From assembly GCA_029556045.1 (NCBI GenBank), contig JAKQGS010000332.1, forward strand, positions 1-11,824: 11,824 bases of DNA, read 5' to 3'. This DNA comes from Pseudomonadota bacterium. Lineage in GTDB: Bacteria; Bdellovibrionota; Oligoflexia; Oligoflexales; Oligoflexaceae. A program made the translations under genes and the position numbers. Below, piece after piece: positions 6,757 through 11,504 of this stretch (its first letter is position 1; each line of letters starts with the position of its first letter). The notes under the pieces were generated by a model. It was given only the letters and a program-made list of their open reading frames with translations. It was not told the origin of the DNA and made no database searches.

Positions 6757-6772
6757 CCGGCTTTCTAGCCGG
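6757..6772 (-). other. Stem-loop over the desaturase stop codon
   Basis: CCGGCT and AGCCGG form a 6-bp GC-rich stem with a 4-nt loop; the TAG stop (6765-6767) lies within it. No U run follows, so it is at best a partial terminator or an mRNA 3'-end stabiliser. Confidence 0.3.
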
Positions 6773-7676
6773 CAACCACCTTGGGTGGCAATGAAACCAC
6801 GGGAAACTCCGGGGTTTCTTTCACTTCCGATGGGGATGTCCTCGCTGTTTTGGCGGGTGATTTGATGTCCCAAACCAAGCCAAAGGCCGCCAGCGTTTTA
6901 ATCACCAGCCAGGTGCTGTCAAACTCCCACCAACGATGCCCATGACGGGCTGATTCTCCCATGGCATGGTGGTTGTTATGCCACCCCTCCCCCAAAGCCA
7001 GCAGTCCAACCCACCAATTGTTGCGGGCAAGATCGTTGACTTCATAGTTGCGATAACCCCATTTGTGGGCGGCGCTGTTGACCAGCCAGGTGACATGATA
7101 AACAAACACCAGGCGAGCAAAAATACCCCACATCATGACCCAAAATCCCCCAATCGCCCACAGGATCAGCCCCAGGATGACTTGCAATCCGATAAAGACC
7201 ATCGGTTTGCTCAGTGTCCGTAAAACAGGATCGGAGATTATATCGCGGGCATACTTGCGCATCACGATAGGATCATCAAATCGCGGATCGGATTTGAGAA
7301 GCCAGATAAAGTGACTGTACCAAAACCCACGACGCGCGTTATGGGGATCTTTATCAGTATCTGAAAACGCGTGGTGCATGCGGTGATGAGCCACCCAGCG
7401 CCAGATGCTGCCCTGTAACGCCAAGGTTCCTGCAACCGCCATCACATACTCAAGCGGCTTGCCAGCCTTGAACGAGCGGTGGGTAAAGTAGCGGTGGAAT
7501 CCCAGAGTGATTCCTCCGGCGGTTATCAGATAGAACGCAAAGAACACGGCAAAAGCCCCCCATGAGAAATGGAAGAGCGCTGGTATCGCCAGAGCGTGAA
7601 AGACCCCTAGCAGCATGATGGTCGGCCAGTCTGGCCGGGCTGGTGACAAGGTGACAGGCGAGAGTCTGGGTGCCAT
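6765..7676 (-). CDS. Membrane acyl-CoA/acyl-lipid desaturase (delta-9 type, three His boxes)
   Basis: Integral-membrane di-iron desaturase that puts a double bond into saturated acyl chains using O2, which raises membrane fluidity; 303 residues. Seen: the three histidine boxes in the right order, HRYFTH (61-66), HRMHH (98-102) and EGWHNNHH (230-237), plus the extra ligand-type His204 in NSAAHKWG. Hydrophobic membrane segments lie at about 20-56, 74-90 and 157-198, between the boxes as in stearoyl-CoA desaturase-like enzymes. Regioselectivity is inferred from family resemblance. AAAGGAG lies 6 nt before the ATG, an excellent ribosome site. Its upstream gap is shared with a divergent lipoprotein gene and contains a Pho-box-like repeat array, so phosphate or stress control is possible. 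The gene needs electron donors not encoded here. Confidence 0.95.
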   Translation of the reverse strand: MAPRLSPVTLSPARPDWPTIMLLGVFHALAIPALFHFSWGAFAVFFAFYLITAGGITLGFHRYFTHRSFKAGKPLEYVMAVAGTLALQGSIWRWVAHHRMHHAFSDTDKDPHNARRGFWYSHFIWLLKSDPRFDDPIVMRKYARDIISDPVLRTLSKPMVFIGLQVILGLILWAIGGFWVMMWGIFARLVFVYHVTWLVNSAAHKWGYRNYEVNDLARNNWWVGLLALGEGWHNNHHAMGESARHGHRWWEFDSTWLVIKTLAAFGLVWDIKSPAKTARTSPSEVKETPEFPVVSLPPKVVAG

Positions 7677-7762
7677 GAGTGACTCCTTTGGTTGAGTGCT
7701 GGGATTTTTCGCCCGAAGCGGTTTCCTCTCACTTTTATCCTACGCACCCTTTCGGCCTTTCA

Positions 7763-7802
7763 CCGTCACATCCTTGTCATGTATTTGTCACAGAAATGTC
7801 AC
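7763..7802 (+). promoter_or_regulatory. Tandem Pho box (probable PhoB binding site), four half-sites
   Basis: Four 7-bp units, CCGTCAC (7763), TTGTCAT (7774), TTGTCAC (7785) and ATGTCAC (7796), repeat every 11 bp with 4-bp spacers; the GTCA cores fall at 7765, 7776, 7787 and 7798. This is the layout of the PhoB box (CTGTCAT, 4 AT-rich bases, CTGTCAY). Units two and three match 15 of the 18 consensus positions by my count. Pho boxes normally read in the direction of the gene they activate, here the lipoprotein at 7941. TATATC at 7806-7811 could be its -10 element, though the spacing is not classical. The desaturase start is about 87 bp away on the other side. Confidence 0.65.
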
Positions 7803-7893
7803 AGCTATATCTTGTGAAAACCACTTGATATTTCAGCCACCTTTACCCTGCCACCAAGCCCAACAAACCACCGAATTTCTGCTCATCCTGTAA

Positions 7894-7909
7894 TTCTATT
7901 AAAATAGAA
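7894..7909. promoter_or_regulatory. 16-bp AT-rich palindrome upstream of the Cys-rich lipoprotein
   Basis: TTCTATT and AATAGAA are perfect inverted arms around AA, ending 31 bp before the lipoprotein start. It contains TAAAAT (7900-7905), which could be a -10 element, although only a poor -35 (TTTCTG, 7876-7881) precedes it. Operator, promoter or chance. Confidence 0.3.
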
Positions 7910-7940
7910 GAATGGACGATGTTCACTCCTGGGAGGGCTC

Positions 7941-8777
7941 ATGCCACATCACACCAAATTCCGCCTTTGGATCGGATTGTTGGGGGCAGCCGCATGCCTG
8001 GCCTTGTGGCTTGGATGCACGCCTAAAGGCAAAATTGTGCAAAACATTACGGCCATCACATCACCCGACGCTGGACAGGCCAAGACCTTGGCCGCACGGG
8101 AGGTTCCTGACCCAGGCAAACCAAGAGAAGGAGCCTATGTTTATGATTTGCCAAAATTCTGCAATCTGGTTGCGTCACCAGAATCCAGTGAGACATGCAT
8201 TGTCTGCACCGCCAACGGACTCCCTCTGGAACGGTGTTTTCCTACCGTGCGTTCATTTACCACACGCACGTCGTGTGGTCACAATCAGCGGGAATTGAAG
8301 TGTCTGATCAATGGCAAAAATCCGCTCCTGACCCTGTCTTTTGAAAACAGTGAGGAAGCGGAGTTTGCCAAAAACTTTCCAGTGTTCCTCAGCACGGTGC
8401 GGGCGATTGCCCAGACCAAGATGGCGGCAAATCAAGGAGATCTCGCCTCCGCAGTTGGGGTTCTGGAATACTTTCAGGGGGCCTCCGGCAAAGTTTTGGA
8501 CCCCGCTCAAAAGGGCGTCATCATCCGTGATATCGACGCACTACTCCAGAAAAGTAATGTTCCCGCAGCATCCCGCGCCACAACGCTTCGTCAACTAAAT
8601 GCCAATCTCGACCAGATATCCCATCGTCGCCGCCACGGACGCCTGTCGCTGCGGGACGGCCAGCAGCTGGCCAAGACGACAATCAGCCCGTTGCCATCTC
8701 AGGCTGTTCTGACCCGGATCATGAGTGAGATTTCTCTTGATGGGCTGGAGAACCCTAGTGATTTAAACATGGAATAA
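7941..8777 (+). CDS. Cys-rich putative lipoprotein of unknown function
   Basis: 278 residues, family not recognised. Seen: a basic then hydrophobic N-terminus (7-25) ending LWLGC, so Cys26 is the likely lipidated residue; a low-complexity linker to about 65; a segment with six Cys at 74, 86, 89, 99, 112 and 121 (including a CIVC pair), which could form three disulfides in the periplasm or bind a metal; then a mostly helical-looking, Cys-free C-terminal half (about 130-278) with many Ala, Gln and Leu and a basic patch SHRRRHGR near 228. GGGAGG lies 4 nt before the start. It stands alone between a Pho-box-bearing divergent promoter region and a strong terminator, so it is probably a single-gene transcript and may respond to phosphate starvation. 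The protein itself shows no known phosphate-related motif. Confidence 0.82.
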   Translation: MPHHTKFRLWIGLLGAAACLALWLGCTPKGKIVQNITAITSPDAGQAKTLAAREVPDPGKPREGAYVYDLPKFCNLVASPESSETCIVCTANGLPLERCFPTVRSFTTRTSCGHNQRELKCLINGKNPLLTLSFENSEEAEFAKNFPVFLSTVRAIAQTKMAANQGDLASAVGVLEYFQGASGKVLDPAQKGVIIRDIDALLQKSNVPAASRATTLRQLNANLDQISHRRRHGRLSLRDGQQLAKTTISPLPSQAVLTRIMSEISLDGLENPSDLNME

Positions 8778-10620: not shown

Positions 10621-10781
10621 CGCGAATGCTACCTCGCTTTCTATAACCGTGAATAATTGAACCTGATTCCTGACTTAATTTCAAAATAACCCAGTTTGCG
10701 GCAGGTCTATACAATTAATTTTACGAGACATCGTCCGATATACCAAATGGGATGATGCATCTATGGGAGGAATCTCTCGCA

Positions 10782-11504
10782 ATGCCGAGAATATTGTTAA
10801 CTATTTTATCGTTTATTGCAGCCCTGCCAAGTCTGTGGGGCTACGATCCCATGTCTCTTAAGAAAACCCATGGGGATGAGTTGGGGGTTTTCATCATGGG
10901 GAGCATTCTGAATACCGTGAAAGACAATAGTGTGGCGCTGGTCAAGGAAACCAAGTCTGGCAAGGTGCTCGCCGTCAAAAAAGGCCACAGCATTCTCGAT
11001 AACAAATATCGCGTCCTGGAAGTGACCTCCAAGTATATGATCCTGTCCCCCAAAACCGGAGCCCCGGTCCTCGTTTATCACGACAAATTTGCTGGTGAAT
11101 TCACCTCTCCCACACCTTCGGGAGCAGACGGCCCCAGCATGGTGGCATCCAGCTATTCAGCAGAAGGCTTTGAGCGGGTGCAGGGATCCATCCGTATCTC
11201 ATCAAGTTTCCGGGAGAAGATGGTGACGGAAGACCTGAGCAAGATTTTGATGGATGCAAGCGCGATCCCCCACTATGAAGGCGGCGAAATCAAAGGGTTT
11301 AAGCTGTTGCAGATTACCAAGGGCAGCATCTATGAAAACGCCGGCTTCATGGACGAAGACGTCATCACCTCCATCAACGGGGTTCCCCTCACCAGCATTG
11401 GAGGAGCCATCAAACTCCTCCATGCCATCAAGAAAGAAAACCGTGTGGAGGTTGATGTCCTACGTAACGGTCAAACGTTCAAAACCGATATAACGGTCAA
11501 TTAA
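10782..11504 (+). CDS. GspC-like periplasmic protein (HR domain plus C-terminal PDZ)
   Basis: 240-residue exported protein that resembles GspC, the inner-membrane link of type II secretion machines. Seen: a hydrophobic N-terminus (3-19) that reads either as a signal peptide ending SLWG or as a membrane anchor; a GspC/PilP-type homology region (about 34-103) with FIMGSILN, VALVKE, AVKKGHSI and KYMILS; a Ser/Pro/Gly linker (about 107-128); and a PDZ domain (about 160-240) with IKGFKLLQITKGSIYENAGF and DVITSINGVPL, a pattern very close to GspC PDZ domains. Unlike typical GspC there is almost no cytoplasmic segment before the hydrophobic stretch. No protease domain is present. The ATG at 10782 is preferred, with GGAGG 11 nt upstream; an in-frame ATG at 10752 would put charged residues before the signal. 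No other secretion genes are visible on either side. Confidence 0.82.
   Translation: MPRILLTILSFIAALPSLWGYDPMSLKKTHGDELGVFIMGSILNTVKDNSVALVKETKSGKVLAVKKGHSILDNKYRVLEVTSKYMILSPKTGAPVLVYHDKFAGEFTSPTPSGADGPSMVASSYSAEGFERVQGSIRISSSFREKMVTEDLSKILMDASAIPHYEGGEIKGFKLLQITKGSIYENAGFMDEDVITSINGVPLTSIGGAIKLLHAIKKENRVEVDVLRNGQTFKTDITVN

Follow-up and report, generated by a model that had tools for sequence, protein, structure and literature searches.

A direct-repeat array at a fatty-acid desaturase promoter is a predicted operator for a putative membrane-sensing two-component system that appears undescribed

The desaturase-lipoprotein gap and its repeats

We analysed an 11,824-nt stretch of DNA, referred to throughout as the window, in which an intergenic gap at positions 7677-7940 separates two divergent genes. 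The minus-strand gene (6765..7676) encodes a fatty-acid desaturase (PF00487, 73.4 bits) that is the putative target of the repeats described below. Several of its homologues are named delta-9 or acyl-CoA desaturase by their sources, and its closest named relatives are Bdellovibrionota and Oligoflexia-type organisms. Desaturase matches were present in 66 plasmid records, every one below 60% identity. The divergent neighbour on the plus strand (7941..8777) is lipoprotein-like, and its product gave no family match in a Pfam and NCBIfam scan. Among 5.8 billion proteins, three including itself were found, the two relatives at 91% and 50%, and viral contigs yielded no relatives; the protein has eight cysteines. 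Elsewhere in the window we observed a low-complexity protein rich in Asn, Gln and Gly (1495-2412) that begins like a lipoprotein and matched no family, and a GspC-like PDZ protein (10752-11504; NF041515, 91 bits, under the cut-off of 150), beside which other secretion genes were not recognised among the window proteins scanned. An Rfam scan gave nothing reaching the gathering threshold.

Four 11-bp units occupy positions 7763-7806, 87 nt from the desaturase start and 135 nt from the lipoprotein start. On the plus strand, unit 1 (7763-7773, CCGTCACATCC) carries CGTCA, one mismatch from TGTCA, while units 2 (7774-7784, TTGTCATGTAT), 3 (7785-7795, TTGTCACAGAA) and 4 (7796-7806, ATGTCACAGCT) carry TGTCA exactly, and all four unit starts are spaced exactly 11 bp apart. 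On the minus strand the predicted operator (7763..7806) reads GTGACATTTCT GTGACAAATAC ATGACAAGGAT GTGACGG. In this direction it faces the desaturase with TGACA in the promoter-distal (7796..7806), second (7785..7795) and third (7774..7784) units, followed by TGACG in a degenerate promoter-proximal unit (7763..7773). The initial annotation had described four TGTCA-type units 11 bp apart, lying between the desaturase and a lipoprotein-like open reading frame, and both the spacing and the gene positions agree with it. Its statement that the units read toward the lipoprotein reflects a choice of strand and not an observation, because the minus-strand array reads as three TGACA and one TGACG facing the desaturase. 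The PhoB-like geometry it noted also stands: the repeats run head to tail near a promoter and follow one another at one helical turn, which is the arrangement of OmpR/PhoB-family operators; on the desaturase strand this amounts to T(T/G)ACA at an 11-bp period within 300 bp of the gene start.

We evaluated the rarity of the array with shuffled sequence. When the 300-bp upstream region of the desaturase was dinucleotide-shuffled 2000 times, the array score was reached 0 times. The two-unit pattern with at most one mismatch had three matches in the window, each belonging to the array itself, against 0.80 expected; at least three such matches also arose in 14 of 200 shuffles, so the two-unit form alone is not rare.

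A candidate -10 element of the desaturase promoter, TAGGAT (7737..7742, minus strand), lies 27 nt from the start of the promoter-proximal unit by hand count. At this distance the repeats would overlie the promoter's -35 side, a usual location for activators of the OmpR/PhoB family. A consensus promoter scan gave one match, on the plus strand and within the array.

Repeat arrays at desaturase promoters of relatives

Relatives were found by scanning GTDB contigs with an alignment of the desaturase, and the best 80 loci among the matches listed were compared. One of these (L002) lies in genome G002, whose phylum we sampled with 56 genomes in most searches and 58 in one. This phylum was the nearest neighbourhood found, because its desaturases reach 59% identity to that of the window, against 47% at most in the phylum of the Halobacteriovoraceae. 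We infer from named homologues at 49-58% identity (Bdellovibrionota bacterium, Oligoflexus, Oligoflexales and Pseudobacteriovorax) that it may be termed Oligoflexia-like. The genomes of two of the 80 loci, L002 and L041, are at the same time members of the phylum sets: G002 (Oligoflexia-like) and G001 (Halobacteriovoraceae side) respectively.

From the 56 Oligoflexia-like genomes we took 29 desaturase upstreams, one per genome at E<=1e-70, with nominal gene starts set from the alignment. T(T/G)ACA arrays at 11 bp on the desaturase strand scored at least 7 in 26 of the 29 promoters and at least 10 in 13 of those 26, with cut-offs chosen post hoc and related genomes that are not independent samples. 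The other 13 arrays sit at the minimum score of 7 and are weak singly, this score being reached by up to 23 of 200 shuffles, and three upstreams (L081, L138 and L145) have no array. Over the whole set, the summed coding-strand score at 11 bp was 267, compared with 66.8 ± 10.2 and a maximum of 94 in 200 shuffle sets, and the mean array score was 9.2 at period 11 versus 2.3-4.3 at nine other periods from 7 to 16. The opposite orientation gave a mean of 4.0 at period 11, which came partly from second, divergent desaturases with arrays of their own; two such desaturases were confirmed as PF00487. Five loci (L126, L127, L129, L131 and L151) carry divergent desaturase pairs of two types, and several of these pairs have one 11-bp array per gene, in that gene's orientation.

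Comparison of the gap in related genomes, a check proposed in the initial annotation, found such an array, clear or weak, at 26 of the 29 Oligoflexia-like desaturase promoters compared. The genes across the gap vary among the 10 loci of this phylum that were read closely. The earlier suggestion that the lipoprotein is the target is not supported: the array keeps to the desaturase in relatives while the genes on the other side differ in those 10 loci. The units themselves are TGACA in the window, which is PhoB-like, whereas most relatives have TTTACA.

Genome-wide counts place these arrays in context. Exact three-unit arrays numbered 10 in the 56 Oligoflexia-like genomes, compared with 5 for the backward control. 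Five of the 10 were upstream of desaturases in coding orientation, three were perfect short tandem repeats and two were elsewhere. Two-unit matches numbered 28 (37 for the backward control), with seven at 76-113 nt upstream of desaturases, three of those having the regulator described below alongside, and 21 elsewhere. As the bare two-unit pattern is not enriched, the evidence in this phylum is one of place and not of number.

The cross-phylum scan covered 79 of the 80 loci (L005 left out). Arrays scoring at least 10 preceded the desaturase in all six Nitrospina-type loci, in 4 of the 34 loci from mixed phyla (Vicinamibacterales, Acidobacteria, Phycisphaeraceae and Pirellulales) and in 0 of the 39 cyanobacterial loci among the best 80 listed. 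Within these three sets, neither orientation gave a score of 10 at periods 9, 10, 12 or 13. For the Bdellovibrio side, 20 desaturase loci included one with the array in the window orientation and two more with it in the opposite one; one locus reached score 10 at period 12.

A kinase-regulator pair linked to the arrays

The Nitrospina-type loci have a common layout, with the desaturase divergent from a histidine kinase gene that is followed by the gene for an OmpR-type response regulator. Related kinase-regulator pairs occur close to the L050, L072, L075 and L066 desaturases, and the desaturase of L139 has an adjoining regulator. Counting all of the best 80 loci listed, a related kinase/regulator was present in the fetched stretch of 9 of 10 array-bearing loci versus 7 of 70 array-less loci (Fisher 4.5e-7). 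Among these seven, L066 has a full pair and the other six have weaker matches.

Nitrospinota are a group of marine nitrite oxidisers. In 60 of their genomes the two-unit form had 59 matches, compared with 27 for the backward control. Of the 59, 32 precede a desaturase by 68-104 nt; each of these has the divergent kinase across the gap, and for 28 of them the regulator also falls within the fetched stretch. Among the remaining matches, one has the pair but no desaturase and 26 lack both. These 32 operators before desaturases have their best -10 exactly 27 nt past the start of the last unit, the distance also counted in the window, the mean score at that offset being 4.51 versus a mean of -3.92 (sd 2.0) over offsets 6-59, with -10 weights set by hand. 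For 23 Oligoflexia-like promoters the top offsets were 49, 7, 27 and 28, none dominant.

We then searched the Oligoflexia-like phylum with an alignment of the regulator (A3). One clear match per genome (223-343 bits) was obtained in 42 of the 56 genomes. G002 was borderline at 211 bits, and otherwise matches were at 204 bits or below, some of them PhoB-like. A kinase lies beside the A3 regulator in 29 of 30 fetched loci, and in 4 of the 30 a desaturase is directly convergent, one of these being confirmed as PF00487. The regulator, at 223 bits or more, was found in all 26 genomes with an array and in none of the 3 without one, a co-occurrence with a chance of 1 in 3654 by simple counting, for cut-offs set post hoc and relatives that are non-independent. 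In G330 the regulator adjoins the desaturase, yet the array is weak. We infer from these relatives that the organism of the window also has the regulator. Autoregulation of the kinase-regulator operon in this phylum was considered and dropped: an array of score 10 stood before the kinase in 0 of 30 loci, with a few hundred bases in view.

The regulator is separable from PhoB-like proteins. In a tree with 28 of the 30 PhoB-like rows, these and 38 regulators fell on opposite sides of a branch with support 100/96; the rows were picked by similarity, so the tree shows distinctness and not function. An atypical OmpR-like regulator near the desaturase of G300 (L135:2470-3216) is a distant relative of the pair's regulator.

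In the kinases, membrane helices immediately precede the catalytic part. Before the H-box, 25 of the 27 examined have two hydrophobic stretches on a simple hydropathy scale and two have three; the last stretch is close to the H-box and the loop is short. Three kinases scanned against Pfam contain HisKA and HATPase_c and no other domain. A kinase that lacks any further sensor domain and neighbours a membrane-lipid desaturase suggests that the signal is sensed inside the membrane, as is described for DesK in the sections consulted of PMC3264485.

Candidate regulators of the array

The initial annotation took PhoB to be the regulator. Under this reading, PhoB on the plus-strand TGTCA repeats would tie the lipoprotein, or the desaturase up or down, to phosphate limitation. 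The array does form tandem 11-bp repeats with a TGTCA core. As in the enterobacterial PhoB operator, the repeats run head to tail at 11 bp with that core in units 2-4, and units 2 and 3 on the plus strand fit 17 of the 21 specified positions of the PhoB consensus by our own count (consensus as quoted in an excerpt of PMC4168254). PhoB-like regulators occur widely in the phylum (29 of 56 Oligoflexia-like genomes at E<=1e-60), and 20 of 30 PhoB-like matches lie within 5 kb of a pstS-type match by hand count, some of the pstS matches being below the family cut-off. However, 0 of the 56 genomes reach the PhoB equivalog cut-off, and the presence of PhoB-like proteins at E<=1e-60 does not follow that of the array: 20 of the 26 genomes with an array have them, and so do 2 of the 3 without.

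The pst promoters of the same phylum carry TTTA(T/C)-type repeats. We built one matrix from 23 of the 29 desaturase upstreams, leaving out L081, L138 and L145 (no array) and L127, L129 and L144 (near copies), and another from 18 of 30 pstS upstreams picked by eye after viewing the repeats. With the window left out of training, the desaturase matrix scored its array at 15.8 (training range 11.2-24.4). The pst matrix, whose own mean is also 15.8, gave the window 2.9, and that elsewhere in the gap; the motif of the window is not one shared with these pst promoters. Desaturase upstreams scored 20.1 and pst upstreams 4.3 with the desaturase matrix; with the pst matrix, desaturase upstreams had 8.9, pst upstreams 15.8 and reversed desaturase strands 1.9. 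By these cross-scores the two motifs are distinct though related. Searching both strands of 30 pstS loci turned up a TGT(A/C)A chain in one (L160), and G334 has TGACA-type units at its desaturase, yet the chain is absent from its one fetched pstS locus (L171). Many pstS upstreams (L159-L188) have their own 11-bp TTTA(T/C)-type repeat, possibly the Pho box of that group.

Unlike the PhoB operator, the array sits at desaturases, lies in the opposite orientation to the gene and differs from the pst repeats of its phylum; among relatives it stays with the desaturase and in the desaturase's orientation. On the pst matrix, co-occurrence and orientation, we set the Pho box aside as the best reading and consider a genuine one improbable, although the fit of units 2 and 3 leaves some probability to a Pho role in the lineage of the window. 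PhoB as the proposed regulator is not supported, given the low pst-matrix score and the better co-occurrence of the array with the other OmpR-type regulator. The link to membrane lipid change that the annotation also drew is supported via the desaturase. PhoB-like 11-bp repeats on their own are no evidence for a phosphate response.

Other assignments of the site were weighed on the same evidence. The array may be shared, with one regulator governing desaturase and lipoprotein from the divergent gap. It does lie between both genes, and the Nitrospinota operator sits between divergent desaturase and kinase genes, so two-sided use is conceivable. Against this, the lipoprotein has just two relatives in the protein database, and the desaturase side is the only one on which a correctly phased -10 was noticed, leaving the shared site possible but doubtful. 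That the array is a functionless chance repeat is very improbable: two-unit matches by themselves are not rare in the window, but none of the shuffles reached the array score and the place is conserved in several phyla.

A general envelope or stress regulator of WalR/RpaB type might also bind the array, with the desaturase as one of many targets. The best family scores of the Nitrospina regulator are for YycF/WalR (189.8 bits) and RpaB (183.8 bits), none above cut-off and both far under the equivalog cut-offs of 340 and 330. The three scanned kinases have HisKA and HATPase_c alone, unlike WalK, which carries HAMP and PAS parts. The WalR/VicR box, TGTWAH-N5-TGTWAH, is likewise an 11-bp direct repeat on either strand (from an excerpt of PMC4168254), and the arrays of some relatives fit it on the other strand, such as TGTAAA-AGAAA-TGTAAA in L130. 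The window differs from this box in having C at the W position in units 1-4, in a linked regulator below the family cut-off and in a desaturase as target. In cyanobacteria, RpaB binds HLR1, TTACA direct repeats whose period is 10 bp by our own reading of the sequences seen in PMC6331805, whereas the window array has 11 bp. We regard a regulator of this type as rather unlikely.

Our preferred reading, to which we assign a probability of roughly three in four, is that the array is an operator of the desaturase under an apparently undescribed membrane-sensing two-component system. A phosphorylated response regulator of the OmpR/PhoB family would bind head to tail on the 11-bp T(T/G)ACA repeats, immediately upstream of the desaturase -10, and most likely activate transcription. 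The position of the array fits activation, with repression a further possibility. This regulator would be the partner of the small histidine kinase, whose only visible input is its two membrane helices and short loop, and the signal would probably come from the membrane's own state (how fluid it is or how its acyl chains pack, as at low temperature). For the binding, the support comes from genetic linkage and co-occurrence. A broader proposal, which we find fairly probable, is a switch spread over several phyla, in which a two-helix kinase sensing within the membrane and an OmpR-type regulator would directly activate acyl desaturases through 11-bp T(T/G)ACA repeats at a fixed distance from the -10. 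In Oligoflexia-like bacteria, Nitrospinota, Acidobacteriota and Planctomycetota it would be the equivalent of DesK-DesR and Hik33-RpaB, and the TGACA variant of the window would be one divergent instance.

The system so proposed resembles two known ones in part. In Bacillus, the regulator DesR is of NarL type and its kinase DesK contains more membrane helices, unlike the OmpR-type regulator and the two-helix HisKA kinase proposed here. Bacillus DesK-DesR is, likewise, a two-component system for a desaturase, with a kinase that senses cold and membrane fluidity (in the sections seen of PMC3264485). Cyanobacterial Hik33-RpaB/HLR1 similarly joins TTACA-type direct repeats (excerpt of PMC6331805) to a cold-sensing kinase, Hik33 (PMC3264485, in part). 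The differences are the 11-bp period, found at 0 of 39 cyanobacterial desaturases, and the Nitrospina regulator's score under the RpaB cut-off.

The kinase-regulator-operator-desaturase unit consists of parts of known kinds, and no description of their combination was found in the open-licence PubMed Central literature searched. To our knowledge, little is known of membrane-state sensing and control of unsaturation outside Bacillus and cyanobacteria. The conserved unit offers a defined, testable system in Nitrospinota and Oligoflexia-like bacteria.

We also compared the sister phylum on the Halobacteriovoraceae side (G001). Desaturases at E<=1e-60 occurred in 18 of its 290 genomes. Three-unit TGTCA arrays were present in 16 of 280 genomes, compared with 2 backward-control matches, and neither a desaturase nor a pst context was recognised by eye in the neighbouring open reading frames of these 16 hits. 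Seven of them (L109, L110, L111, L112, L114, L116 and L117) have one compound site in common, some copies of which lie near contig ends. This site consists of TGTCA(T/C)CA three times at 11 bp, followed by GAAAT-type repeats at about the same spacing.
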